NCBI GenBank assembly: GCA_012519695.1
Contig: JAAYPT010000038.1
Location: 1-45,604 of the forward strand
Direction of reading: 5' to 3'
From: Clostridiales bacterium
Lineage (GTDB): Bacteria > Bacillota > Clostridia > Lachnospirales > Lachnospiraceae
DNA: 45,604 nt
The notes beneath the pieces were generated by a model, which was not told the origin of the DNA, did not search any database, and saw only the letters and a program-made list of their open reading frames with translations. Positions 1 through 45,604 of this stretch are shown piece by piece (position 1 is the stretch's first letter; every line of letters starts with the position of its first letter). A program made the translations under genes and the position numbers.

Positions 1-1473
1 ATGCCCCCCTTGTGGGAACATATCCACCGGCTGCACCTTCTTCACCTCATATCCCTGTTCACACAGATACTTCAAGTCTCGTGCCAGTGTAGCAGAATCA
101 CAGCTTACATATACCACACGTTCCGGCTTCATTTTCAAGATGGTTTCCAAACATTTTTCATCACAGCCCTTGCGTGGTGGGTCTACTACGATTACATCCG
201 GATGCAGCATATCCTCCGGCTTTCCTTCTTCCAGACATTCCTTACGTTCCTTTACGTTTTCTTTGCTATCTGCGCACTCTGCCCCCAGCTTGCCTTTTGC
301 CATTCCCTTCTCATAGAAATCCGGCAGCACTTCCTCTGCCTTTCCTACGAAAAATGTTACATTCTCAATACCGTTTATTTTGGCATTATTCTTGGCATCT
401 GCAATAGCCGCCGGTACAATTTCCACACCATATACCTGCTTTGCCTTTTGCGCCAAAAACAGAGAAATTGTTCCAATTCCGCAATACAAATCCCAAACGG
501 TTTCTTTTCCGGTAAGTCCTGCGTACTCTAATGCTGTACCGTAGAGTTTTTCTGTCTGTATCGGATTGACCTGATAAAAAGAAAGTGGCGATATCTGATA
601 TTGAATGTCACCAATATAATCTGTGATATAATCCTGTCCCCAAAGGGATATGATTTGTTCTCCCAAAATGACATTGGTGTTTTTCTCATTTACATTCAAG
701 GTAATGCTGGTCATCCCCTGAATTGCAGTCAACTGCTCTACCAACTGCTCTGCATGCGGCAGTTTCTTTCCATTTACCACAAGACAGACCATAATCTCCT
801 TGGTGGTAAAACCAAAACGGATCAGCACATGGCGCACCAGACCTTTTCCGGTAGTTTCATCATAGGCTGAAATATGATATTTTTCCATAAAAGAAATCAC
901 AATATCCAGAATCTTCTCATTAATCTCTACACCAAGATAACACTTACGATTCGGTATAATATTGTGACTGCGGCTGGCATAAAAGCCCGTTATAATTTTT
1001 CCATTTTTATCTGTTCCGATAGGAAACTGTGCCTTATTCCGATAAAAATATGGCTCTTCCATGCCAATCACCGGATTTACTGTAAGACCATCGCCGCTGC
1101 CATCTGCTTCTTTTACAGCAAAACCACCGATTCTTTTCAGATTATTGCGTACTTTATTTTCTTTGAACTCTAACTGTTTCTGGTACGCTACTGCCTGAAT
1201 CTGACAACCTCCGCACTGGCGATGATATTCACATTTCGGCTCTACACGGTAAGGGGATGGAATCAGTATTTCCATCATTCTGGCATAACCGTAGTGTTTC
1301 TTCATTTTCATGATTTTTACACGAACACGGTCACCTAGCACAGCATCTTTTACAAAAAGAGTCACTCCTTCTGCCTTTCCAATGCCTTCTCCATCCACTC
1401 CCATATCTTCAATGGTAAGTTCCAGTTCCATATCTTTTTTTAATATATTTTCACTCTTATTTTTTCCTGACAT
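1..1473 (-). CDS. rlmD: 23S rRNA (uracil-5-)-methyltransferase, RlmD/RumA family, 3' end beyond window
   Basis: Methylates a uridine of 23S rRNA at C5 using S-adenosylmethionine. The frame starts at ATG 1473 and stays open for 491 codons to the window edge, so the C-terminus is missing. An N-terminal TRAM-like region (about residues 15-70) precedes Cys81, Cys87 and Cys90 in the C-x5-C-x2-C spacing of the RumA iron-sulfur site, with a fourth Cys in NRKCYLGVE. The catalytic region reads VVDPPRKGCDEKCLE followed by VYVSCDSATLARDLKYL. A charged stretch of about 35 residues (KGMAKGKLGAEC...EEGKPEDML) lies between the SAM-binding fold and DPPRKG, where most family members are shorter. The gene begins 9 bp after the yhaM-like stop, so the two are probably cotranscribed. 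The family assignment is firm; the exact target uridine is inferred. Confidence 0.93.
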   Translation of the reverse strand, partial: MSGKNKSENILKKDMELELTIEDMGVDGEGIGKAEGVTLFVKDAVLGDRVRVKIMKMKKHYGYARMMEILIPSPYRVEPKCEYHRQCGGCQIQAVAYQKQLEFKENKVRNNLKRIGGFAVKEADGSGDGLTVNPVIGMEEPYFYRNKAQFPIGTDKNGKIITGFYASRSHNIIPNRKCYLGVEINEKILDIVISFMEKYHISAYDETTGKGLVRHVLIRFGFTTKEIMVCLVVNGKKLPHAEQLVEQLTAIQGMTSITLNVNEKNTNVILGEQIISLWGQDYITDYIGDIQYQISPLSFYQVNPIQTEKLYGTALEYAGLTGKETVWDLYCGIGTISLFLAQKAKQVYGVEIVPAAIADAKNNAKINGIENVTFFVGKAEEVLPDFYEKGMAKGKLGAECADSKENVKERKECLEEGKPEDMLHPDVIVVDPPRKGCDEKCLETILKMKPERVVYVSCDSATLARDLKYLCEQGYEVKKVQPVDMFPQGGH

Positions 1474-1482
1474 ACGCGCTTC

Positions 1483-2430
1483 CTAATCACTGGTTCTTCG
1501 CAAATTAGACTCAAACATACGATTGTAGCCCACCCAGTCTGTATTTCCTTCTGGGACTGCTGCAAATATTTCTTTTATTGTTTCCATTTTTGCATCTGTA
1601 TTATCTGCAAAACTCAATGCTACCGCCTCTGCAAGTGCCGGTTTTTTCGGAGAACCATACTCCAATTCTCCATGATGTGCCAAAATACAGTGCTTCAGTT
1701 CATTTGCCAAACGTGGTGGAAATCCCGGAATCGTGCGAATACGCTCTCCTACCATTTCTGCACCAATCATAATGTGACCTAACAACTGACCTTCATCGGT
1801 ATAATCATTTGCCGGGAATACAGAAAGCTCCTCTAATTTTCCAATATCATGGAAAATAGCTGCTGCAAGCAACAAGTCTTTGTTCAGTATTGGATAATTC
1901 TGCGTATAATAATTACACAGTTTTGTAACACCCAAAGTATGCTCTAACAATCCGCCTACAAATCCATGGTGTACGCTTTTGGCTGCACTATGAAACTTAA
2001 ATCGCTTTTCAAAGTCTTTATCTTCTATAAAAAAGCTGGACAGTAATTGTTTCAAGTAAGGATTCTTCATTCCCTGTATAAATCCCACCAGCTCTGTATA
2101 CATTTCATCGATATTTTTATCACTAACAGGAAGATAATCCTTTGGCTCATATTCTCCTTCCTGTACCTTGCGCACACGCTTTACATTTAACTGTAAAGCT
2201 CCCTGAAAGCTTGTTACATCTCCTACCACATCGATATAATCTAATGCTTCAAATTCATCAATTCCCTGTGAATTTGGGTCCCATATTTTTGCATCTAATG
2301 TTCCTGTTTTATCCTGCAAAATCAAGGATTCATATGCCTTCCCTGCTTTGGTTAGTGCAGTCTGTTTCGCCTTGCACAAGTAAATCTCTCCAACACGTTC
2401 GCCCTCTCGCAGGGTTTCAATATATTTCAT
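1483..2430 (-). CDS. yhaM: YhaM-family 3'-5' exoribonuclease (OB fold + HD domain)
   Basis: This 315-residue protein matches the YhaM/CBF1 family, which trims short RNA (and DNA) 3' ends in Firmicutes. Residues 10-95 form an OB-fold nucleic-acid-binding domain (GKAYESLILQDKTGTLDAKIWD). Residues 150-290 form the metal-dependent HD phosphohydrolase domain, with HHGFVGGLLEHT at 154-165, HDIGK at 194-198 and a later AHHGELEYGSP. Length and domain order are those of the family. It lies between the HtrA-like gene and rlmD on the same strand. The start is the ATG preceded by AAGGAGCAAATT. The assignment is by motif and architecture. Confidence 0.9.
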   Translation of the reverse strand: MKYIETLREGERVGEIYLCKAKQTALTKAGKAYESLILQDKTGTLDAKIWDPNSQGIDEFEALDYIDVVGDVTSFQGALQLNVKRVRKVQEGEYEPKDYLPVSDKNIDEMYTELVGFIQGMKNPYLKQLLSSFFIEDKDFEKRFKFHSAAKSVHHGFVGGLLEHTLGVTKLCNYYTQNYPILNKDLLLAAAIFHDIGKLEELSVFPANDYTDEGQLLGHIMIGAEMVGERIRTIPGFPPRLANELKHCILAHHGELEYGSPKKPALAEAVALSFADNTDAKMETIKEIFAAVPEGNTDWVGYNRMFESNLRRTSD

Positions 2431-2477
2431 AATTTGCTCCTTCTACTTTTATCTCTTTTTCTAATTCTAACACAATC

Positions 2478-3746
2478 CTACTGCAAAACTCCAACTCCTG
2501 CATTACACTCAAGTTCTACATATTCCTCTGCATTTTGGCGTTTCAGCGTAATTTTCACTGCATCCCCCGGATTCAATCCCAGCAACAACTGATTGTACTG
2601 CTCTACCGAGGTGATTTCCTCACCATTCATTTTTACAATAACATCTGCTTCCTGTAATCCGGCTGCCATCGCAGGAGAATCCAGCTCAACACCTTTCACA
2701 TATACGCCCTTTGGTATACTATAAGTCTCAGAAATATCATCTGTTACGGTACTGATACGAAGTCCCAGATACGGAATATCCTTGTTATTTGAAAGATCTT
2801 CAATCACCTGCTTCAACTCGGAAATAGAGATTGCTGTAATGGTATTACGGTCTCCCTGATTACTATAATCTTTAAGTACCAGTCCCACAATCTCACCGGA
2901 CAGATTCAATAGCACACCACCACCATTTTCACTTCCTACCATATCCGTGGTAAAAATCGTATAATTATTATCAATGGTTGTTACCTTATTCTGAGTGGAG
3001 GTAATGGTTCCGCACATAATAGAATCACTTGAGCCCAATGGATTTCCAATGGCAATTACCACGGTTCCCTGAGACATTACCAGGGAATTTCCAAGTGTTG
3101 CCACTGCAATCCGACTCATCGTATCTTCGGAAATATCTGCCAATGCCACACTAATTACTGCAACTCCTGTGTTTCCATCATATTTTTTCAAAGTTGCAGG
3201 AACCGTTACCTTATCACAAAATGTAATAGATATGGACTGGGCATCTGCAATTACTTTTCTTTCTGTTAAAATCAATAACTCCTGTCCATTATTTCCAATA
3301 ATAATACCAGATGCCTGATTTTGACTTTCATACGGAGTATTGAACCAATCAGTTCCACTGGTAACTCCTGTTACCATAACTACAGACTTATCTGCCTGTT
3401 TTCCGATGGCATAAAGCTCCTTTTGCAGATTTTGATATCCATCTACTCCCAGTTCTTCCTGCACATATACGGGCTCTTGCGTTTCTTCTTCATTCTGTCC
3501 CTGTGATGTTTGCTCCTCATCCTTTGGTTCTTCATCCTTTGGGATTGTAATGGTCTGATCCTTTTTCGGCTGTGTCCATTCCTCAATATGCGGTTTTAAG
3601 CATACAAAAGCAAGACATGCCACCGCACCAAATACAATGGCGCACAAAATATCGTATGCCAGATGGATCAGCATACGCTTCTTGTTAATTGGTTTATCTT
3701 TTATTTTTTCCTTAATAAAAGAAAATTCCTCATCATCCTGTTTCAT
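2478..3746 (-). CDS. HtrA/DegP-like membrane-anchored PDZ protein, catalytic triad lost
   Basis: A 422-residue protein with the HtrA layout. It has a short cytoplasmic N-terminus, one membrane segment at about 26-50, an acidic linker (70-95), a trypsin-like double barrel (about 115-315) and a C-terminal PDZ domain (about 325-415, GVYVKGVELDSPAMAAGL). HtrA enzymes degrade or refold envelope proteins. Here the His motif TNNHV reads ILTERKV (Lys164), the Asp motif TDLAV reads NTGVAV (Gly194), and the serine motif GNSGGPL reads ENGGGVL (Gly275). All three catalytic positions therefore appear replaced, while IAIGNPLG and the fold-defining glycines remain. It is more likely a substrate-binding or regulatory pseudo-protease than a peptidase. 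The start ATG is preceded by AGAGGAG. Loss of activity is inferred. Confidence 0.85.
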   Translation of the reverse strand: MKQDDEEFSFIKEKIKDKPINKKRMLIHLAYDILCAIVFGAVACLAFVCLKPHIEEWTQPKKDQTITIPKDEEPKDEEQTSQGQNEEETQEPVYVQEELGVDGYQNLQKELYAIGKQADKSVVMVTGVTSGTDWFNTPYESQNQASGIIIGNNGQELLILTERKVIADAQSISITFCDKVTVPATLKKYDGNTGVAVISVALADISEDTMSRIAVATLGNSLVMSQGTVVIAIGNPLGSSDSIMCGTITSTQNKVTTIDNNYTIFTTDMVGSENGGGVLLNLSGEIVGLVLKDYSNQGDRNTITAISISELKQVIEDLSNNKDIPYLGLRISTVTDDISETYSIPKGVYVKGVELDSPAMAAGLQEADVIVKMNGEEITSVEQYNQLLLGLNPGDAVKITLKRQNAEEYVELECNAGVGVLQ

Positions 3747-3819
3747 AACGAGTTCTCCTCTAGTAAAACCACTTTAAACTTAACCATTTTAGACTCAAAA
3801 ATGCCTTGCATTTTTTCGT

Positions 3820-3898
3820 TAACATATCCACTCCTTCGGAGCTTACAGTTTTTGCTTCGCAAAAGCTGTGAAACTATTTCATAGTTTCTGATATGTTA
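3820..3898. repeat. three-armed inverted-repeat (cloverleaf-like) element
   Basis: Outer arms TAACATATC (3820-3828) and GATATGTTA (3890-3898) are exact reverse complements. They enclose three consecutive hairpins: CTCC/GGAG (3831-3841), ACAG-T-TTTTGC/GCAAAA-G-CTGT (3845-3869) and GAAACTAT/ATAGTTTC (3870-3888). Each has a three-base TTC loop on this strand. It lies between the divergent HtrA-like and mutS2 genes and would form the 5' leader of the HtrA-like mRNA. I do not recognise it as a known riboswitch. Confidence 0.8.
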
Positions 3899-3899
3899 C

Positions 3900-3928
3900 A
3901 TTATACGTTCTTCTTTCCATTGTTGCAA
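3900..3928 (-). promoter_or_regulatory. predicted promoter of the HtrA-like gene
   Basis: On the minus strand there is a -35 TTGCAA (3928-3923), a 17-bp spacer and a -10 TATAAT (3905-3900). Transcription would start near 3893, inside the outer arm of the adjacent three-armed element. The -35 hexamer is self-complementary and is shared with the mutS2 promoter. Confidence 0.7.
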
Positions 3929-3951
3929 GATTTTTATTTTTACGGTAAAAT
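3923..3951 (+). promoter_or_regulatory. predicted mutS2 promoter
   Basis: TTGCAA (3923-3928), a 17-bp spacer and TAAAAT (3946-3951), about 70 bp upstream of the mutS2 start. The same TTGCAA read on the other strand serves the divergent HtrA-like gene. Confidence 0.65.
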
Positions 3952-4022
3952 GTATTAAATAGGCGGATTCTCTGCTTATTTACCAGTAATCTTACAACTT
4001 TTTAATATAAGGACTTAAAATT

Positions 4023-6401
4023 ATGAATGAAAAAGTATTAAAAACATTAGAATATAATAAAATTATTGATCTGCTGACGGAGTATGCTACTTCGGAATCC
4101 GGAAGGGAACTTTGCCGAAAGTTAAAACCCATGACGGATTTAGAGGCTATTGAGGATGCACAGGCAAAGACCCGTGACGCTCTTTCTCGTATTTTTAAAA
4201 AGGGCAGTCTTTCCTTCTCCGGACTTCACAATATCGGAGCATCTCTGAAGCGTTTGGAAATCGGCGGTACCCTTGGAATTGAAGAACTTTTACGCATTGC
4301 CTCACTCCTTGAGGTTGCCAAACGTGCCAAGGCTTACTCTCGCAGCGACCGGGAAGATACCAAAGCAGACTCTCTTGACGAACTTTTTGACAAAGTCGAG
4401 CCTTTGACTCCTCTATTAGATGAAATTCGCAGATGTATCATTTCGGAAGATGAAATTGCAGACGATGCTTCTTCTACCTTGAAAAATATCCGTCGTTCCA
4501 TGAAAAACATCAATGACAAAATCCGTAATCAGATGAATACTATGTTAAATAACACAGACACTCGAAATCTGTTACAGGATGCTGTGGTTACCATGCGAAA
4601 TGGCAGATATTGCCTGCCGGTAAAGGCAGAAGCCAAGGGGCAGGTGCCCGGTATGATTCACGACCAGTCTTCTACCGGTTCTACCATTTTTATTGAGCCT
4701 ATGGCTGTAGTGAAGTTAAACAATGACTTAAAAGAACTGTTTTTAAAAGAACAGGAAGAAATCGAAGTCATTTTGGCAAACCTGAGTGCTCAGGTAGCTG
4801 AATACATTTCTTTTTTACAAGACGATTATCAGGTATTGACTGAACTGGATTTTATTTTTGCCAAGGGTTCTCTTGCAAAAAGCTACAACGGTACTGCTCC
4901 TCTTTTCAATACTGAGCACCGTATTCGTATTCGAAAGGGAAGACATCCACTGTTAGATTCTCACAAAGTAGTTCCCATTGATATTCACTTAGGGGATGAC
5001 TTTGATTTGTTAATTGTAACCGGTCCAAATACCGGTGGTAAAACCGTTTCCATTAAAACCGTAGGACTTTTTACCCTGATGGGGCAGGCAGGTCTTCATA
5101 TCCCTGCAAATGACCGCTCCGAGCTGTCTATTTTCCATGAAGTATTTGCAGACATCGGAGATGAGCAAAGTATTGAGCAAAGTCTTAGTACCTTCTCTTC
5201 TCATATGACCAACATTATTTCTATTTTAGACCGGGTAGACGAAGACTCACTGGTGCTTTTTGACGAGTTATGTGCAGGAACTGACCCAACAGAAGGTGCT
5301 GCACTTGCCATCTCTATTTTAACCAGACTTCACAACTACGGTATTCGTACCATGGCAACCACTCATTACAGCGAGCTTAAAGTTTTCGCCCTTTCTACTC
5401 CCGGTGTGGAAAATGCCTGCTGTGAATTTTCCGTTGAGACCTTAAGTCCTACTTACCGTCTTTTAATCGGTATTCCGGGAAAAAGTAATGCCTTTGCGAT
5501 TTCCGGGAAATTAGGCTTAAGTGAAGATATTATTACAGAAGCGAAAAAACACCTGACGGAGCAGGACGAAAGTTTTGAAGACCTGATTTCCGACTTAGAA
5601 TCCAGCCGTGTTACCATTGAAAAAGAACGTTTAGAGGTAGAGCAGTATAAGCAGGAAATTGCCTCTTTGAAGAAAAAATTAGAGCAAAAACAAGAGCGTA
5701 TCGACAGTCAGAAGGAAAAAATCATCCGTCAGGCAAACGAAGAAGCTCATGCTATTTTACGAGAAGCAAAAGAAGTTGCCGACCAGACTATCAAAAACTT
5801 CCACAAGTACGGAAAAGCCACTCCTTCCATGAAAGATATGGAACAGGAGCGTTCTAAACTTCGTGATAAAATGAATAGCTTAGAAAAGGATATGTCCCTT
5901 AAGCAGAAAAATGCCCAGACCAATCACAAGGTTCCTAAGAAACTGCGCATTGGTGACACAGTAAAAGTTTTGAGTATGAATCTCACCGGAACTGTCCACA
6001 CTCTGCCGAATGAAAAAGGCGACTTATATGTCCAGATGGGTATTTTACGGTCTTTGGTAAATATCAAAGATTTGATATTAGTAGAAGAAACTCCGGTACT
6101 TGGAAACAAGAAAAAATCCACCGGTGCCGGAAAAATCAAAATGGCAAAATCCGCTTCTGTTTCTACCGAAATCAATCTGATTGGTAAAACTACGGATGAA
6201 GCCATTGCACTTTTAGATAAATACTTAGACGACGCCTACATTGCCCATATGCCTTCCGTACGCATTGTACACGGAAAAGGTACCGGTGCACTTCGAAACG
6301 CCGTACACAATCATTTAAAACGTTTAAAATACATCAAATCCTACCGTCTTGGTGAATTTGGTGAAGGAGATGCCGGCGTAACCATTGCCGAGTTCAAATA
6401 A
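4023..6401 (+). CDS. mutS2: MutS2 family ATPase/endonuclease
   Basis: A 792-residue MutS2, a DNA-structure and collided-ribosome-associated ATPase that lacks the mismatch-recognition domains of MutS. Visible are the core/clamp domain (1-300), Walker A GPNTGGKT (334-341), Walker B SLVLFDELCAGTDPTEGAAL (near 405), a long coiled coil (about 520-630), a KOW-like segment (about 645-695) and a C-terminal Smr domain (about 715-792) with IVHGKGTGALR. The Smr entry motif, usually LDLR or LDLH, reads INLIG, so nuclease activity of that domain is uncertain. ATG 4023 follows a weak AAGGAC. It is the first gene of an apparent operon with the two-component genes; the response regulator ATG lies 12 bp after this stop. 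Confidence 0.95.
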   Translation: MNEKVLKTLEYNKIIDLLTEYATSESGRELCRKLKPMTDLEAIEDAQAKTRDALSRIFKKGSLSFSGLHNIGASLKRLEIGGTLGIEELLRIASLLEVAKRAKAYSRSDREDTKADSLDELFDKVEPLTPLLDEIRRCIISEDEIADDASSTLKNIRRSMKNINDKIRNQMNTMLNNTDTRNLLQDAVVTMRNGRYCLPVKAEAKGQVPGMIHDQSSTGSTIFIEPMAVVKLNNDLKELFLKEQEEIEVILANLSAQVAEYISFLQDDYQVLTELDFIFAKGSLAKSYNGTAPLFNTEHRIRIRKGRHPLLDSHKVVPIDIHLGDDFDLLIVTGPNTGGKTVSIKTVGLFTLMGQAGLHIPANDRSELSIFHEVFADIGDEQSIEQSLSTFSSHMTNIISILDRVDEDSLVLFDELCAGTDPTEGAALAISILTRLHNYGIRTMATTHYSELKVFALSTPGVENACCEFSVETLSPTYRLLIGIPGKSNAFAISGKLGLSEDIITEAKKHLTEQDESFEDLISDLESSRVTIEKERLEVEQYKQEIASLKKKLEQKQERIDSQKEKIIRQANEEAHAILREAKEVADQTIKNFHKYGKATPSMKDMEQERSKLRDKMNSLEKDMSLKQKNAQTNHKVPKKLRIGDTVKVLSMNLTGTVHTLPNEKGDLYVQMGILRSLVNIKDLILVEETPVLGNKKKSTGAGKIKMAKSASVSTEINLIGKTTDEAIALLDKYLDDAYIAHMPSVRIVHGKGTGALRNAVHNHLKRLKYIKSYRLGEFGEGDAGVTIAEFK

Positions 6402-6413
6402 GGAGTGACCACT

Positions 6414-7112
6414 ATGGTAGCAAAACAGAAAATTCTTATCGTAGACGATGATGTAAATATTGCAGAACTGATTTCTCTCTATCTGACCAAGGAGTGTTAT
6501 GACACTCGTATGGTCAATGACGGAGAGGAAGCACTTGCTGTATACGAACAATATCAACCCAACCTCATTCTACTGGATTTGATGCTTCCGGGTATTGACG
6601 GTTATCAGGTATGTCGTGAAATCCGTACCAAGTCCAACGTTCCGATTATCATGCTTTCCGCAAAGGGAGAAATCTTTGATAAAGTCTTAGGATTGGAATT
6701 AGGTGCCGATGATTATATTATGAAGCCTTTTGATTCCAAGGAATTAGTTGCTCGTGTAAAAGCGGTATTACGCCGTTATCAGCCATCCAAGCAGGAAGCA
6801 CCCGCCTCTGATATTAAGTGTGTGGAATATCCAGACCTTATTATCAACCAGACCAACTATTCTGTCCTTTACTATGGAAAACCTGTGGATATGCCACCGA
6901 AAGAACTGGAATTATTATATTTTCTGGCTTCTTCTCCAAATCAGGTATTTACCCGTGAACAGCTTTTAGATCACATCTGGGGCTACGAATACATTGGTGA
7001 TACCCGTACCGTAGACGTGCATGTAAAGCGTCTTCGTGAAAAAATCAAAGACCACAAATCCTGGAGTTTGGCTACCGTTTGGGGCATTGGTTACAAGTTT
7101 GAGGTGAAATAG
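6414..7112 (+). CDS. OmpR/PhoB-family response regulator
   Basis: A two-component DNA-binding regulator of about 232 residues. The receiver domain has the acidic pocket DDD at 11-13, phospho-acceptor Asp55 in LILLDLMLPG, Ser82 and Lys104 in MKPFDSKEL. A winged-helix effector domain (about 135-230) ends with RTVDVHVKRLREKI and a WGIGYKF strand. An in-frame GTG at 6405 overlaps the Shine-Dalgarno AAGGAG (6400-6405), so the ATG at 6414 with 8-bp spacing is the better start. The partner kinase begins directly after the stop. Target genes are unknown; proximity to mutS2 does not reveal the signal. Confidence 0.93.
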   Translation: MVAKQKILIVDDDVNIAELISLYLTKECYDTRMVNDGEEALAVYEQYQPNLILLDLMLPGIDGYQVCREIRTKSNVPIIMLSAKGEIFDKVLGLELGADDYIMKPFDSKELVARVKAVLRRYQPSKQEAPASDIKCVEYPDLIINQTNYSVLYYGKPVDMPPKELELLYFLASSPNQVFTREQLLDHIWGYEYIGDTRTVDVHVKRLREKIKDHKSWSLATVWGIGYKFEVK

Positions 7113-8528
7113 TTGAAACGTACATTATATTTAAAACTTTTACTGGGTTATGTGGCTTTTGGTATTTTGGGATTCATTACCATAGCCACATTTACTTCCC
7201 ATCACAGTATGAATTACATAGAAACAAAAGCTGCGGAAAACTTATACCGGGAATCTAACCTGATTGCTTCTAATTATGCAACCAGCTATTATCGACAGAC
7301 AAAAACCCTTGAAGATGTACAGTCTCAGATATCTGCCATTGCCACTTATCTCAATGCAGACGTATGGGTAGTAGATACGAAAGGGAAAATTTTAATTGAT
7401 TCCGCATCTACTACACCTTCCGATACTCCAATTAAGGACTTTGACATTACTTCCTTTGGTACCAAATACTACTTGGTAGGCGATTTTTATAATCTATATT
7501 CGGAAGATGTATTAACGGTGTTTTCCCCTATTACCATCAACTACAAAGTCCAAGGATACGTTTTGATTCATCAGCCTGTTGCACAACTTACCTCGTTTAA
7601 TAATGGCATATTAAATATTTCTTATATGACACTTGCCATTATCTTCCTATGCGCCTTTGTGGTTCTTGGATTGTTTACCTATACGGTATACATCCCCATT
7701 CGAAAAATTACAGAAGCAGCAAAAGAATATGCTACCGGTGATTTTTCAAAACAGATTAATATTCACAAGAATGATGAAATCGGCTATCTTGCCGCTTCTC
7801 TAAACTTTATGGCAACAGAGCTTTCCACCTTAGAAGAAGACCAGCGTAAGTTTATCGCCAATGTATCTCATGATTTTCGCTCTCCTTTAACTTCTATTAA
7901 AGGATATATCGAAGCCATTATGGATGGCACAATTCCTTATGAGATGCAGGATAAATACTTAAACATCATTCTTTTTGAAACCGAGCGACTCAACAAATTG
8001 ACACAGGGTATGCTGGAATTAAATAAATACGGAAAAAAGGGAACCATGTTAGACATTTCCCGGTTTGATATCAACAATACCATTAAAATGGTAGTACAGT
8101 CCTTTGAAGGTACTTGTACGCAAAAGAAAATTTCTTTTGAACTCATTCTAACCGGTCAAACACTGTTTGTTTCTGCCGATATGAGTAAGATTCAGCAGGT
8201 ACTTTACAACTTAATTGACAATGCTATCAAGTTTAGTCATGCTGATTCTTCTATCACTATTGAAACAACAGAGAAAAATGAAAAAGTCTTTGTCTCTGTA
8301 AAAGATACCGGAATTGGTATTCCAAAAGACAGTATCAAAAAGATTTGGGAACGCTTTTACAAAACCGATCTTTCCCGTGGAAAAGATAAAAAGGGAACTG
8401 GTCTTGGCCTTGCTATTGTAAAAGAAATTATTTCCGCACATAATGAAAATATTAACGTAATCAGTACGGAAGGTGTTGGTACCGAATTTATCTTCACACT
8501 TCCTCTTGCAGAAGAAAAGAACGGATAG
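7113..8528 (+). CDS. membrane sensor histidine kinase
   Basis: A 471-residue kinase paired with the preceding regulator. Transmembrane helices lie at about 8-28 and 169-191 and bracket an extracytoplasmic sensor of about 140 residues. A HAMP linker (192-245) follows. The HisKA domain carries the phospho-acceptor His253 in VSHDFRSPLTSIKGYIEAI. The HATPase domain has N box NLIDNAIKF (Asn370), G1 DTGIGIP (398-404) and G2 GTGLGLAIVKE (428-438). The start is TTG at 7113, immediately after the regulator's stop, with GAGGTG 6 bp upstream (7101-7106). No alternative start fits better. The sensor resembles the small PAS-like modules of PhoR/YycG kinases, but the ligand cannot be read. Confidence 0.93.
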   Translation: MKRTLYLKLLLGYVAFGILGFITIATFTSHHSMNYIETKAAENLYRESNLIASNYATSYYRQTKTLEDVQSQISAIATYLNADVWVVDTKGKILIDSASTTPSDTPIKDFDITSFGTKYYLVGDFYNLYSEDVLTVFSPITINYKVQGYVLIHQPVAQLTSFNNGILNISYMTLAIIFLCAFVVLGLFTYTVYIPIRKITEAAKEYATGDFSKQINIHKNDEIGYLAASLNFMATELSTLEEDQRKFIANVSHDFRSPLTSIKGYIEAIMDGTIPYEMQDKYLNIILFETERLNKLTQGMLELNKYGKKGTMLDISRFDINNTIKMVVQSFEGTCTQKKISFELILTGQTLFVSADMSKIQQVLYNLIDNAIKFSHADSSITIETTEKNEKVFVSVKDTGIGIPKDSIKKIWERFYKTDLSRGKDKKGTGLGLAIVKEIISAHNENINVISTEGVGTEFIFTLPLAEEKNG

Positions 8529-8554
8529 AGATATGCCTCTATCCGTTCTTTTTT
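8519..8554 (+). terminator. intrinsic terminator of the mutS2-two-component operon
   Basis: GAACGGATAGAG (8519-8530) pairs with CTCTATCCGTTC (8537-8547), followed by seven T residues. The kinase stop codon lies inside the left arm. Confidence 0.88.
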
Positions 8555-8594
8555 GTTATCCTATGGTAATCTATCCGCTGTCTCACATGATAGA

Positions 8595-9410
8595 TTACAC
8601 TACAATATTTATTCCTCCTGCCGCTACCGCTGCCTCTTGGGAAAACGAACTACCGGTAGCTGTTGTGCCTGCATTCATTTCATTTGCAATCTGCTGTGCC
8701 TGTTGTTCAATCTGAGCATCCGTCAACTGTGCTGCTTCTGCACTTAAATCTAAGGTTACTCCTGTGGAAGCTCCCCCGCTGGAGCTATATGGATTTCGTA
8801 AATTTCGTAGCTGTTGCTTCAAATAATTAAAGTCTGCTTCATTTACCTTACTTTGTTCCTCGCTACGATGAAATTTCTTTTTTCTTACTAATTCTCTTTT
8901 TTGGCTCTTTTGCTTTTGAATCCGCTGCATGCGTGCCAGTCCGCTTTTCTGCTCCTGCGCCCGCTCTTTTCGGGCTGCCCGCGCCTTTTCTTCATTCTTC
9001 TCCTGACGCAAATCCGCCTTTGCCTCATTCTCAAACTTCTTTTTTGCCCGTTCCTCCTGACGCAGGTTTTGCGTTTTCATTTGGGCACACTGAACCATTT
9101 TTTTTGCATGTGCAATTGCAACATTGACTTCCGCATCATTGTACTGCCCGCTTGCCTTACATTTCATCAGATTACTAAGTTTGCTTTTTGTCTGCATTAG
9201 TACTCTTCCGGCACTTTGTGATTTTTTCGCTCTTAAAATCGCTGCTGACATTTCTCTCGGGTTATAATTCAACTGTTTTTTCTGGTTCTTATTACGCCCT
9301 GTTGTCCTTTGTGTTACTTTGCTGATACTACTTAAACTATTTGTCGACACAGACATGGATGGTAAATTTCCCGTTACCAATCCACTTGCCGTATATGTGG
9401 ATACTTTCAT
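8595..9410 (-). CDS. unrecognised Lys/Arg/Gln-rich coiled-coil protein
   Basis: A 271-residue protein with no domain I recognise. The start is ATG 9410 with AAGGAGG 10 bp upstream (9421-9427); a longer frame to 9467 has no better site. The N-terminus (MKVSTYTASGLVTGNLP) is Ser/Thr-rich. The middle (about 90-200) is strongly basic and helical with many KKxxxEE and RxxKARAARKERAQE segments, consistent with a long single helix or coiled coil. The C-terminus is Ala/Gln-rich (SAEAAQLTDAQIEQQAQQ) and ends in GGINIVV. There is no signal peptide or membrane segment. It is divergent from a 64-residue gene at 9595. Being lysine-rich, it could bind nucleic acid, but nothing proves this. Confidence 0.75.
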   Translation of the reverse strand: MKVSTYTASGLVTGNLPSMSVSTNSLSSISKVTQRTTGRNKNQKKQLNYNPREMSAAILRAKKSQSAGRVLMQTKSKLSNLMKCKASGQYNDAEVNVAIAHAKKMVQCAQMKTQNLRQEERAKKKFENEAKADLRQEKNEEKARAARKERAQEQKSGLARMQRIQKQKSQKRELVRKKKFHRSEEQSKVNEADFNYLKQQLRNLRNPYSSSGGASTGVTLDLSAEAAQLTDAQIEQQAQQIANEMNAGTTATGSSFSQEAAVAAGGINIVV

Positions 9411-9594
9411 AACTATAATTCCTCCTTGAAACTCCCATTTCAGATGCTTCCATGCATCCTTATTCAAATTATACTATACAATATATTCATCGGAGTTTTT
9501 CGGAAAAATATTAACAGTACCATATTCCCACAAATTATATGTATTTTTTCTTTTTCTCCTGAAATACTAAATAAAAAAAAAAGAGGTTGAACTT

Positions 9595-9789
9595 ATGGAC
9601 ATCTATAATACCGGAGGACTCCCTATCGGCTTTACAATGGGACTGGCAATGAATGTAAATGCAATGAATCATTTTTCCAATATGACCGAATCAGAAAAAG
9701 AAGAAATCTTAAATCGTGCAAGAGATGCTAAATCCAAAGAAGAAATGCAGGAAATTATAAGTCAGTTATCTTCGGAAAAATTTCTTTGA
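9595..9789 (+). CDS. small 64-residue protein, unknown
   Basis: A short protein starting MDIYNTGGLPIGFTMGLAMN with a hydrophobic, Met/Gly-rich first third and a charged helical second half (TESEKEEILNRARDAKSKEE). AGAGG lies 8 bp before ATG 9595 (9582-9586). No signal peptide cleavage site or known domain is visible. The helical half resembles short regulatory or adaptor proteins, but I cannot assign a family. It is divergent from the basic coiled-coil gene and followed by a hairpin at 9814-9842. Confidence 0.65.
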   Translation: MDIYNTGGLPIGFTMGLAMNVNAMNHFSNMTESEKEEILNRARDAKSKEEMQEIISQLSSEKFL

Positions 9790-9813
9790 ATCAACACCAT
9801 TTTTTCTGTTGGC

Positions 9814-9842
9814 AAAACCCATGGATTCATTTCCATGGGTTT
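9814..9842. terminator. hairpin between convergent genes, probable terminator
   Basis: AAACCCATGGA (9815-9825) pairs with TCCATGGGTTT (9832-9842) across a six-base loop. T runs on either side are short, so termination strength is uncertain. It sits between the 64-residue gene and the 3' end of the sigma factor gene. Confidence 0.55.
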
Positions 9843-9853
9843 CAACCTTTATC

Positions 9854-11983
9854 CTACTGAATACTCTGAATATTCTCTTCTGTTAAGTTTAAGAATGGAA
9901 CATCCATTTCTTTTCCTGTTCCAACATAGGATTCTATGCTTCCGTCACCAGATACGCCACTACCTACTTCTTTATAGGAATCACTTTCCCCCATATACTG
10001 ATACATTACATATGACCATCCATCTGTATCATCCCCCTGATTATGAGAAGCGTCTGCTCTTATAAATCCGTTATCATAATATACCAGTGCTGGGAATTCC
10101 GAAAATTCTTCCATTAAAAAATCTCCACCGGAAAAACTATATATCACTTCTCTCATGCCTGCCATTGGACCTGAAACATATCGAATAATCAGTTCCTCTT
10201 CTCCATCGCCGTCAATATCCAATATGGTAAATTGACTTTGCGCTAAATCTTGCGCATCACGATAATTACATGTTGTTCCATTTGGGAATACATGGTTTAC
10301 ATAAAGATTTTCTAATGCAGCTTTGTAGGCTTCTTTTCTCGCTGCATCTTTTGCCTCATTGATAACATCCATTACCCTGTATTTTCCGGTTTCCGTCTTT
10401 TGCAATACTGCTACTCTATTCTCTACCGTACTTACATCTTCCCCTGTTTCCTCATCAATTCTTACATTTTCAACCTGATAATTGACTGTCAGCTTGTCTC
10501 CCTTAAGTGTTGCATTTAAAATTTCTGCATATTGACTATCGGCTGGTTCGGCTATCACAATTTCTAACTGGTCTCCCACTACTTTTTGTCGTTGCATACT
10601 GTCGTTGTCCTTCTCCTCAAATGGATGAGCTGTGAACACGGATATAAAATTATTTACCTCTGACAGATTATACAAATCACTTCCCCTTCCATTTGTTCCG
10701 GTTTTCGCAATTCCAATCTGATTCCGTTCCCCATCTGTAGCTATACGAAATACCAACTCACTTATGGCTTTCTTAGATATATTTCCATTTTTCATACTGT
10801 CCGGACCATAAGCTAATGCAAATTGGAACTGTTCTTTTGTAAGTCCCCCTTCTAAAAGTTGCGGATATTGATCATCTGTAACTGCTTTTTCTGTTTCTAT
10901 TTCTTCCGTTTTTGTTTCTTCTGGCGAAACTTCTTTATTATCTTTTTCTTTTGTATGAGACTTTTCCTCTACTACTGCATTTTGTTCTGCTCCCTTATCA
11001 CTCTTTTGGTTATTCATCACCACTGCTGTTGTTCCGGCAGCTACCAGACAAACAACACCTGCCACTGTAAGTTTTCCTGCAAGGGTATGTATAAATCCTT
11101 TTTTTACTGCTTCCGCAGCCGTTTTTGTTCCTACATTGGCTCCCACATTGGTTTCTGCCCCTGCTGTTCCTGCACTTGCTGTTCCTGCATTGGCTGTTCC
11201 TGCATTGGCTGTTCCCGCACCTGCTGTTTCCGCACTTGCTGTTCCGGCATTTGCCCCTGTTGATTGAGCTCCAGATGCTGCCACTTTATCTGCAATATTA
11301 CTTGCCATAGCCTTTCCTGCTGTTTCCAACATGCCCTGTGCTGCCAATGCATGTTCCTCTGATTTAAGCAGACATAATAAGAATGGTACCGGTGCCATGC
11401 CATAAAGCTTGTATCCTTTCTTTTGCAGTTCTTCTGCCTTTCCCTTAATGTTCTTTCTTCCATAATTTAATCTTGATTTTACTGTATTTTCAGAACATCC
11501 CAAACTTTCCGCTATTTCACTGATACTCTGTCCTTCTATATGAAACATTAAAATACACATTCTTTGTTCTTCTGACAGTGAATCAATCAGCTCATGCACA
11601 AGCTCCTGTGTCTCACGCTGTGAATATGCGATTTCCGGCTGATTTTCTATACTTTCATCTTCTATCTGATATTCAAATTCTTCCTCTTCCTGATCTCCCA
11701 CGATTTCAGAAAAAAGCATTGGATTTTTCTTCTGCAACGCATTCTTTGCCGTATTCGCAACAATGATTCCTAACCATGACGCAAACTTTTCCGGATTTTC
11801 CAATGTATCTAACTTACGAAATGCCTGAATATATGCATCCTGTAACACATCCTTTGCTGCTTCCTCATTTTGCATATACTTCAAGGCAAGATAATATTTA
11901 CTTTTGTAAGTCTCTTCATACAAAAAATTAAATCCGTTTTCATCCCCTTGCTTCACTAACCTTACTGCTTCCGTATAATTCAT
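9854..11983 (-). CDS. ECF-type sigma factor fused to a membrane anchor and extracytoplasmic domain
   Basis: A 709-residue fusion. Residues 1-90 are sigma region 2 (AAKDVLQDAYIQAFRKLDTL, then FASWLGIIVANTAKNAL). Residues 120-185 are region 4, with helix-turn-helix ISEIAESLGCSENTVKSRL. A low-complexity linker (243-278) is made of AGTAN/AGTAS repeats. One membrane helix (about 305-323, KLTVAGVVCLVAAGTTAVVM) follows, then a 380-residue acidic, presumably external domain. That domain contains a calcium-loop-like LDIDGDGEEEL (588-598). ECF sigma factors usually carry only regions 2 and 4 (about 180 residues) and pair with a separate anti-sigma factor, which is not seen here. The C-terminal part may sense an envelope signal and restrain the sigma domain. 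A matching ECF promoter lies upstream at 12151-12182. The ATG has GGGAAAGAG upstream. Confidence 0.88.
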   Translation of the reverse strand: MNYTEAVRLVKQGDENGFNFLYEETYKSKYYLALKYMQNEEAAKDVLQDAYIQAFRKLDTLENPEKFASWLGIIVANTAKNALQKKNPMLFSEIVGDQEEEEFEYQIEDESIENQPEIAYSQRETQELVHELIDSLSEEQRMCILMFHIEGQSISEIAESLGCSENTVKSRLNYGRKNIKGKAEELQKKGYKLYGMAPVPFLLCLLKSEEHALAAQGMLETAGKAMASNIADKVAASGAQSTGANAGTASAETAGAGTANAGTANAGTASAGTAGAETNVGANVGTKTAAEAVKKGFIHTLAGKLTVAGVVCLVAAGTTAVVMNNQKSDKGAEQNAVVEEKSHTKEKDNKEVSPEETKTEEIETEKAVTDDQYPQLLEGGLTKEQFQFALAYGPDSMKNGNISKKAISELVFRIATDGERNQIGIAKTGTNGRGSDLYNLSEVNNFISVFTAHPFEEKDNDSMQRQKVVGDQLEIVIAEPADSQYAEILNATLKGDKLTVNYQVENVRIDEETGEDVSTVENRVAVLQKTETGKYRVMDVINEAKDAARKEAYKAALENLYVNHVFPNGTTCNYRDAQDLAQSQFTILDIDGDGEEELIIRYVSGPMAGMREVIYSFSGGDFLMEEFSEFPALVYYDNGFIRADASHNQGDDTDGWSYVMYQYMGESDSYKEVGSGVSGDGSIESYVGTGKEMDVPFLNLTEENIQSIQ
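11163..11252. repeat. six tandem 15-bp repeats inside the sigma factor gene
   Basis: Six back-to-back 15-bp units (consensus gctgttcctgcattg with few changes) encode the Ala-Gly-Thr-Ala-Asn/Ser linker between the sigma domain and the membrane segment. In-frame copy-number change would lengthen or shorten the tether. Confidence 0.85.
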
Positions 11984-42757: not shown

Positions 42758-44023
42758 CTACTGTCCAACCGATGCGGTAATTGCTTTGACTGTGTTATCC
42801 ATTAATTTTTGTAAATCCGTGCCGTCCGGATTGCCTGCTGCTAATGTACTTCCCAGCTCTGAGATTGGATTCCAATAGTTGTTTCCAACTCTCTGAAGTA
42901 CTGCATATTCTGACTGCGCTGTAAGTGCCTGAATTGCCGGAGAGTTCTTTACTTCATCAGAAGCTGCTTCATTATTATTACATGGTCCCTGTTCCCTTTC
43001 TTCAAAACGAAGCTTCTGATTTTGCTCATTGGTAATCCAATCTGCTAATTTCAATGCCCAATCAGTATGCTTAGAATATGCATTAACACCTACCATCTTA
43101 TATCCTTTAAAAGATGCCATCTGCACCTGCTGACCTGCACAAGTATAGGTTGGTAATTTTACTGCACCAAAGTTATCTCCCCATGCTTCCTTTAAAGTGG
43201 ATACATCCCATGCACCACTTATGCCTGCTGCAACAGTTCCATTCTTTGCGCCTTCTACAAAATCTGCATCTACCATATTGGCAAATCCAGGATTTGCCGC
43301 AATCGCCAACATTGCCTGTGCAATATCAACACCTTTGATGTTTCCCTCTGTGCTATTCCAGTCACAGCTCATACTAATACCATCATCATTTAAGCTCAGA
43401 TTCAATCCGGTATTTCCAAAGAAGGAATATAGATACCATCCGGAAGACCAATCCATTACTACTTTTTTATTAGCCGCTGCCGCAACATTTAACATCTGGT
43501 CGAGACTTGCTACGTCTGCATCAGAAAAAACACTTTTATCATAATACATAAGGTATCCATTGTCTGCTGTCATGGGATATGCATACAAAGTATCATTTAC
43601 AGAGGCTGCTGCTACCGCTTCTTCCAAATTTGCTGACTTCACTTCGTCTGCATTATCCACCGGTACCAGCGCACCGGCTGCTGCCAAACTTAATAACTGG
43701 TCATCTGCAAAGGCAAATACATCTGCGCCATTCAGGACATCTCCCAACAAAGCATCCTTACAAGACGCTTCACTTTCTGCCTCAATTGTAATATCAAAAT
43801 CTGCCTGATCAGCATATTCTTTCTTAAAGCTATCCACTATTTCTGCTAATAATGCCTGATCTTCTTCTGCCCCCCAAAGAGTTAACTCCACCGTACCGCT
43901 TTCTTTTTGCGCTTTCTCTGTCTTAGAGGTACTGCTCTTTTTCTTCTGGCTTCCCGCACATCCACTAAGTGCCATGCTAACCGCTAAGACAACCGCTGTA
44001 ATTGCTGCCATCTTTTTCTTCAT
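42758..44023 (-). CDS. extracellular solute-binding lipoprotein (family 1, sugar-type)
   Basis: 421 residues from ATG 44023 (AGGAAG upstream); the longer frame to 44062 is not supported. The lipobox LSGC (Cys22) follows a signal peptide MKKKMAAITAVVLAVSMALS and a short Ser/Lys spacer. The mature part resembles the MalE class: VELTLWGAEEDQALLAEIV, then AYPMTADNGYLMYYDKSVFS. No ABC permease or ATPase gene adjoins it; the next gene is a chemoreceptor. The ligand is unknown; a sugar or oligosaccharide is likely by class. Confidence 0.92.
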   Translation of the reverse strand: MKKKMAAITAVVLAVSMALSGCAGSQKKKSSTSKTEKAQKESGTVELTLWGAEEDQALLAEIVDSFKKEYADQADFDITIEAESEASCKDALLGDVLNGADVFAFADDQLLSLAAAGALVPVDNADEVKSANLEEAVAAASVNDTLYAYPMTADNGYLMYYDKSVFSDADVASLDQMLNVAAAANKKVVMDWSSGWYLYSFFGNTGLNLSLNDDGISMSCDWNSTEGNIKGVDIAQAMLAIAANPGFANMVDADFVEGAKNGTVAAGISGAWDVSTLKEAWGDNFGAVKLPTYTCAGQQVQMASFKGYKMVGVNAYSKHTDWALKLADWITNEQNQKLRFEEREQGPCNNNEAASDEVKNSPAIQALTAQSEYAVLQRVGNNYWNPISELGSTLAAGNPDGTDLQKLMDNTVKAITASVGQ

Positions 44024-44068
44024 GTCACTACTTCCTTTCTTTCTTGTGATATTGATATACATATATTA

Positions 44069-44312: not shown

Positions 44313-44358
44313 CACAAAAAAATTACCGCAATCCCCTTTACAAGGGTTTGCGGTAATT
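44313..44358 (-). terminator. terminator of the truncated tuf gene
   Basis: AATTACCGCAA (44321-44331) pairs with TTGCGGTAATT (44348-44358), with an inner CCCTT/AAGGG stem. Seven T residues follow on the minus strand. Confidence 0.85.
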
Positions 44359-44377
44359 AAAGTTCTATCAGTTATAA

Positions 44378-44431
44378 TTATTCGATAACTGTAGCAACAC
44401 GTCCTGTTCCTACAGTACGTCCACCTTCACG
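44378..44431 (-). pseudogene. tuf: 3' remnant of elongation factor Tu
   Basis: The minus strand encodes REGGRTVGTGRVATVIE and a stop, the exact C-terminus of EF-Tu (17 codons), followed by a terminator 20 bp later. Upstream of CGT 44431 the sequence departs abruptly: the expected FAI codons before REGG are missing and unrelated A+T-rich DNA follows. So tuf is cut here, by an integration or rearrangement whose far side lies to the right. Confidence 0.88.
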
Positions 44432-44573
44432 CTTTCAAGTAAACTTACAGATAATGAAATTCCTTGTATTTATGTTGTTTTTATTCCTTAATTTTCCACC
44501 CATTCTTTTTAAAATACCCTGTTTTTTATTTTTTAAGGTCAAAACGAGGTCACGTAGGAACTTAGAAATAATG
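44432..44573. other. A+T-rich sequence next to the tuf junction
   Basis: About 140 bp without a gene, starting at the point where tuf homology stops. No inverted repeat typical of an insertion sequence was seen; it may be the edge of an integrated element. Confidence 0.4.
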
Positions 44574-45500
44574 TTATCTATTTTTTACCCACATATTATA
44601 ATTGGTCTCCGCATTCTTTCCACCATGTGCTTTAAAGATGTTTTTCCAATCTTCTAATGTAAGACTACCCAACCATTCTTTTACCTTTTCACATTGCTTA
44701 ATATCTATCTCACCATTCCTGCTATACCATTCCTTCGATAATATATGTGCCGCATACCTTGATACACCTAACATACACAAAGCTACTGCAACCATACTAT
44801 CAACTCCAAAATAGATAAATGCGGGAATAAGTGGATACGAATCGTCTTGTTTTTCCTGTGGATTAACAATTCCCTGTGCTTTAAAAACAGCCGAAATCCC
44901 CCATGGCAAATTATTAATAAGCCTAGAATATATGTACTTTCCGCATATATTCATCTTATCCTGTATATTACACTCTTCCCTATTTATACATGCATCAGAA
45001 ATTGCTCTTATACTCTTTCCATGAACCCACATCTTAGTTAACAAAGCAACATTTTCAGCATTCAATGGTGCGTTTGAATCATATATTCCTAAATTAATTT
45101 CAGGGATTCCATTAACCAGCTTAATTATATCTACTAGCTGATTGTCTCTACCACTAAACAATACTCTACTATTAGGAATAGACATTTTTGTATGATTAAT
45201 CTCATACATCAACTTTTTCATACTGATACTACTTATTCCTGTAGTATCAATAATATCCATAAGCTTCTTCTTTTTCAAATCACCTTCAATTTTTCCAATA
45301 TAATTTTTAGTGATTCGTAATAGTTTTTCTGCAAGTACACTATTCCCCTTTTTTTCAAGATTTGAATATACATAACTGCCACGCAATAAATCCTCTACTT
45401 CTATATCTTCATACAGCTTCTCAATATGATAAATATACTGTAATAAAGTAGACAATTCTCCATATTGCTCAATATATGCTTGAGTTTCCGCAAATTGCAT
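44574..45500 (-). pseudogene. helicase-like C-terminal fragment (uncertain)
   Basis: A 308-residue frame, MQFAETQAYIEQYGELSTLL to WVKNR, with no ribosome-binding site before its first ATG and a stop seven codons upstream, so it is probably the C-terminal piece of a larger protein. AENVALLTKMWVHGKSIRAI, then LPWGISAVFKAQGIV and AFIYFGVDSMVAVALCMLGV, resemble the C-terminal helical region of large DEAD/DEAH helicases found in mobile or defence loci. Helicase motifs themselves (Walker A and B) are absent. Codon use looks more A+T-rich than the neighbours. Assignment is low confidence. Confidence 0.4.
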
Positions 45501-45604
45501 TTGAAAGGTGAATAAATCTAACTAAAATGCCAATCTGCCATATTTTGAAAGGATTTATGTGGTAGTTCTTTGACTAGAGGCACTTTAACAAGCCCCGTCT
45601 AATA

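Follow-up and report, generated by a model that had tools for sequence, protein, structure and literature searches.

Described IMEs sit in the 3' ends of rpsI, rplL, rpmE, rpmG and guaA, IMESag-rpsI being one example, and passages of PMC5704250 and PMC5357655 portray such 3'-end elements as forming stacks, carrying a MobV relaxase and having sizes near 10 kb. The words tuf and EF-Tu are absent from the main text of both papers. The elements examined here resemble the IMESag-rpsI group in their tyrosine integrase, in their location at the 3' end of a conserved housekeeping gene and in their occurrence in stacks; moreover, Mob_Pre is found in 9 of 107 cargo proteins of relatives located at tuf, and the 14 relatives with both ends (leaving out L092, a duplicate of L091) span 4.6-12.8 kb. 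They differ from that group in their target, which is tuf, and the element of the genome under study (G000) shows no relaxase among ten proteins compared with Pfam, part of it falling into an assembly gap.

Similarity to two other systems is more limited. As in ICEBs1, a small excisionase-like protein is encoded directly before the integrase in G000, but its match to the ICEBs1 excisionase model is weak (32.1 bits, far below the cut-off of 100), and, unlike in ICEBs1, no conjugation genes were seen in the parts of the G000 element that could be read. According to passages of PMC3478194, EF-Tu genes of marine bacteria are carried in genomic islands and recombined by homology; there too an EF-Tu gene is found near islands, but as a carried gene and not as the target of site-specific integration. 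Passages of PMC5126054, PMC3173496, PMC3478194, PMC5704250, PMC5357655 and PMC9652813 never name tuf as a target, and no report of tuf in this role was found in the literature searched, most subscription papers being outside its scope. Elements at the 3' ends of housekeeping genes are hence already known, while tuf as their target appears to be new.

The tuf fragment and the probable right end of an element

The DNA analysed here, hereafter the window, is 45,604 nucleotides long and represents the whole of contig C92 in the 111-contig genome G000; its right end is the contig end. Three features make up its last part (44313-45604): the tuf tail and its terminator, some 1.05 kb of the element, and a repeat. 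The original prediction that the last 17 EF-Tu codons remain here together with the stop codon and terminator is confirmed: positions 44378-44431 on the minus strand encode REGGRTVGTGRVATVIE-stop (17 codons plus stop, 54 nt) and are followed on the same strand by a hairpin with a T run at about 44314-44359, of which 44321-44358 are self-complementary with an imperfect stem. This hairpin is likely the old tuf terminator. The fragment, which we designate attR, starts at CGTGA and agrees with the end of the intact tuf gene on contig C53 at 54 of 60 nt (E 8e-17). As was also predicted, the homology ends abruptly, the alignment to the C53 gene stopping at 44431 with nothing tuf-like beyond. A search of the genome with the fragment stretch returned only the fragment itself, the intact tuf end and a self-match of the hairpin, and the match is therefore not due to chance; there are just two tuf tails in the assembly. 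On the other side of the fragment the chromosomal flank begins with a gene for a solute-binding protein (SBP; 42758-44062, minus strand; Pfam SBP_bac_8).

Of the integrated element, the part of the right end that the contig includes would occupy 44432-45478, between the last tuf-like position and the border of the repeat. It contains, at 44574-45478 on the minus strand, the C-terminal remnant of a candidate defence protein that matches positions 758-1054 of the 1060 in the PADLOC model PDC-M23B (E 2.1e-43), and no full-length match to the model was obtained. The same 308-aa ORF is also matched weakly by HamB of PADLOC, while a scan of the remnant against Pfam and NCBIfam gave no match and a search of the G000 assembly for the missing N-terminus did not find it. 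As listed, the ORF extends to 45500. It is ruled out as a complete gene, since its start codon lies inside the repeat and only the last part of PDC-M23B is matched. The repeat itself (45479-45604) forms the last 126 bases of C92, and its end is found at 17 contig ends of G000, C92 included; in all 16 others the border corresponds to 45479 or one base before (query of 115 nt; two of the 16 ends covered just 57 and 40 nt of it). It is probably an insertion sequence of high copy number, with neither a transposase nor its body seen, and it would have cut the candidate defence gene at 45479 at a later time. The earlier suggestion that this part of the window marks the border of an integrated segment thus holds at 44431, while the window itself ends on the right in a multi-copy repeat.

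The intact tuf gene and the probable linkage of two contigs

The only intact tuf gene found in G000 encodes 395 aa and is located on C53 after fusA and a pair of genes that, judged by eye, are rpsL and rpsG. About 13 kb of other genes follow tuf, encoding a Mor-like regulator, zinc-ribbon proteins, DUF932, YqaJ, RecT, DUF5688 and a resolvase, and further on a number of unknown proteins, an excisionase-like protein of 60 aa and finally a tyrosine integrase (Pfam Arm-DNA-bind_4, Phage_int_SAM_3 and Phage_integrase). The integrase gene is cut by the contig end in G000 and complete in relatives; its missing end was sought in the G000 assembly and not found, and the last 268 bases of C53 are single copy there. 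Virion structural genes were not seen among nine proteins compared with PHROGs or ten compared with Pfam, again with part of the element in the gap. Two large backbone proteins, of 583 and 625 aa and encoded at 7950-9701 and 10134-12011 of L013 (the C53 locus), match no family of Pfam, PHROG or NCBIfam at E 0.001, and are conserved in the Lachnospira relative described below at 29% and 44% identity.

We consider it very probable that an element integrated into the 3' end of tuf by means of its own tyrosine integrase, displacing the old tail and terminator. The target of the integrase would be a short core sequence, located at the Arg codon (CGTGA) that lies 17 codons ahead of the stop, and the attachment site of the element would carry a copy of the tuf tail, usually with a terminator-like hairpin at the left end. 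After integration tuf would stay complete, with its tail and terminator now supplied by the element, and the old ones would end up, as a fragment, at the far end. In G000 the left end would be formed by the genes after tuf on C53, from the Mor-like regulator through DUF932, YqaJ and RecT to the excisionase-like protein and the integrase, and the right end by the candidate defence remnant followed by attR in the window. The layout agrees with this, as a direct repeat (54 of 60 nt) rebuilds the target at one end and leaves the fragment at the other. The original prediction had named three things to look for, a direct repeat, an integrase and a complete tuf of the same ending, and all three have been found, though on C53 and C92 and not on one contig.

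As C53 and C92 are unjoined in the assembly, their direct linkage is deduced from two contigs. It is supported by a one-contig genome of the same genus (G026), which carries tuf, three genes and then the SBP block in the same order as in the window: SBP, MCP, nrdD, nrdG, AraC, LD-transpeptidase, methyltransferase and lgt. G026 is not a clean empty site, because the three genes separate tuf from SBP by 2.8 kb. Relatives of two of them sit elsewhere in G000, on contig C83, and no FabF match was found in that stretch of C83. Across the genus an SBP match is present in 18 of 29 genomes, G000 included. A tuf tail was seen near SBP at none of 20 other same-genus loci, G026 among them, with only about 1.5 kb covered on each side, and within the same coverage tuf directly preceded SBP in no genome.

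The complete layout is preserved in Lachnospira sp. RGIG8763 (G350), where a single contig of 89,746 bases carries a homologous element. Here an intact tuf gene is followed by about 10 kb of other genes, the DUF932-YqaJ-RecT...integrase backbone, cargo and a tuf fragment, which lies about 25.7 kb from tuf and is succeeded by the start of a second element; there is no tuf tail between tuf and the fragment. The G350 integrase is the closest one to the G000 enzyme (78% over 301 columns).

Such successions of elements raise the question of whether the foreign genes of C53 and the right end in C92 belong to two elements stacked at tuf, with more material in the gap. Stacks do occur (L085, L088, L127, L102, L230 and L187), the gap between C53 and C92 is unread, and the integrase starts 1.0-2.1 kb after the border in 31 of the 35 loci with an upstream tail, compared with about 12 kb from the upstream tuf tail in G000. 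However, the G000 assembly has no third tuf tail, and G350 combines the same backbone order with an integrase far from tuf and no intervening tail, so that a stack in G000 appears rather improbable to us. The G000-type layout, in which the integrase is nearer the fragment, is also seen in L098, L101 and L102.

An integrase clade associated with tuf tails

An alignment of five integrases, used to scan a genome collection, gave 205 confirmed candidate loci, and the best 78 of these were compared in a phylogenetic tree. The EF-Tu tail was sought by script in all frames with a pattern that needs the Arg codon, so that fragments starting later would be missed. Together with G000, 51 loci are set apart by a branch of full SH-aLRT support, and a tuf tail was present in the stretch examined at 41 of these 51 and at none of the 27 outside. 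Along the tree the tuf-tail label changes 9 times, compared with a mean of 26.3 after shuffling (0 of 500 shuffles as low), although relatedness alone already clusters such labels. Site specificity hence appears to follow the integrase clade, the exceptions being L093, L099 and L228, and short contigs.

In eight of the ten clade members without a tuf tail, the contig ends within 4.2 kb upstream of the integrase; four of these eight (L097, L117, L119 and L130) nevertheless include 1.9-4.1 kb there, where most of the family would show the tail. In L093 and L099 the tail is absent from at least 7.5 kb examined on each side. Their integrases (L093:10001-11065 and L099:9923-10972) are close to the tuf integrase (85% and 80%) and form a supported pair, and the neighbouring genes, judged by eye, are involved in polysaccharide (glycan) synthesis. 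These two integrases may have been taken over for a different purpose, for example switching.

A second survey covered 299 genomes of the family, with at most six candidates scored per genome, and found 22 places at 54% identity or more in 19 genomes. The tuf tail was present at 20 of 21 such places (G000 left out), at least five of which are probably contigs of the first set, so the two surveys are not independent. The remaining place, L228, shows no tuf tail in the stretch read. Among integrases at 45-49% identity none of 11 has a tuf tail within 1.5 kb.

These distributions also bear on the possibility that a second tuf copy once stood beside SBP and was lost by deletion, leaving its last 17 codons behind, as the original prediction had offered in place of integration. 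Two tuf genes occur in some bacteria, and the fragment taken by itself has the look of such a deletion. The loss of a second copy is nevertheless not needed, because fragments with the same 5' border adjoin one integrase clade in many genera. That border is shared by all 16 pairs of ends described below, the intact tuf of G000 itself has mobile-element genes downstream, and G026 has tuf at this very place, followed by the genes that the fragment adjoins in the window. We regard a deleted second copy as very unlikely. An assembly or binning artefact producing a chimeric contig, to which the 111 contigs and a contamination estimate of 1.75% might point, is hardly credible, since the junction is internal to one contig, some 1.2 kb away from the contig end, and the same kind of junction recurs in many other assemblies. 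Integration at the tuf 3' end, supported by the repeat, by the integrase and by the complete layout on one contig in relatives, remains the reading that we prefer.

Proposed point of exchange and tail replacement, and cargo

In 16 attL/attR pairs, comprising G000 and 15 loci (with the duplicate L092 counted), the agreement of the two ends starts at the Arg codon, CGTGA. Upstream of it the agreement extends for at most 2 nt, while 43-54 of the 54 coding nt agree, and agreement without a break reaches at least 5 nt from the border. We infer that the exchange takes place at the left edge, at CGTGA, unless later changes have blurred it.

If the tail is borne by the element, identical attL tails are predicted beside differing tuf genes. 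Such a case is given by L113, L114 and L124, in which the attL tail is identical over its 54 nt and the following 90 nt are nearly identical, whereas tuf just upstream differs and the records are named Anaerostipes, Faecalicatena and Suipraeoptans. Cultured carriers of elements at tuf include Anaerostipes sp. 992a and Suipraeoptans intestinalis 68-1-5. A perfect hairpin with a T run is present within 140 nt after the tuf end at 26 of 36 left ends, that of G000 on C53 included (mean of 0.1 and maximum of 1 over 30 shuffles). At the fragments this was found in 6 of 22, and the G000 fragment is not among these, its imperfect stem not being scored by the strict perfect-stem scan. In G000 the terminator after the intact tuf on C53 is similar to those of same-genus genomes that showed no element, so that by sequence alone either tail might be the native one. 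It is the topology that makes the tuf tail in the window the chromosomal one. A replacement of the tail in G000 is presumed, as is a present mobility of the element.

The cargo of relatives was scanned in 107 of 123 listed ORFs, a list from which the integrase and its surroundings were excluded and from which 16 overlapping, spurious-looking ORFs were left out by hand. Besides Mob_Pre, Pfam identified AAA_25 in eight proteins, N6_Mtase in four, C5 methylase and BsuBI/PstI endonuclease in three each, and Abi_2 and SEFIR in two each. PADLOC likewise found type II restriction-modification models. Individual cargo proteins gave hits to bSEFIR, to Vsr, to type II restriction-modification and to a reverse transcriptase model of type VI retrons. 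Several of the elements at tuf carry genes of anti-phage defence.

EF-Tu is an abundant and essential protein, and its gene serves as a species marker. We tentatively suggest, as a possibility that we would put slightly short of an even chance, that small mobile defence islands of Lachnospiraceae use the tuf 3' end as a major docking site, with one integrase clade reading the nearly invariant last codons. Because these codons vary so little, the site would be at hand in every host. Each insertion would rewrite the C-terminal codons of EF-Tu and the terminator, so that tails would spread horizontally and EF-Tu output may change. A family of elements docking at tuf would explain stray tuf fragments, and tuf tails may offer a simple way to find and delimit such elements in gut Lachnospiraceae. 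They are also a warning that the 3' end of tuf can probably be acquired horizontally, and the stretch between integrase and tuf fragment seems to be a place to look for defence genes.

Related integrases were also found in virus and plasmid data. In phage and plasmid collections they are all below 60% identity (8 and 4 records, respectively), and IMG/VR yielded nine loci, two of them at 56-57% identity (L186 and L187). No tuf tail was found in the part of L186 examined, while L187 (positions 1-11944 of an IMG/VR contig) holds two tuf-type elements with a tuf tail between them; such elements are therefore filed as viral. Among six phage records examined only L181 (MT839393.1, from human faeces) has a tuf tail. 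Here a right end of the L113/L114 type, the tuf tail and a left end of the L115 type stand in a row (L181:198-300), an arrangement that would fit either an excised circle or a stack.
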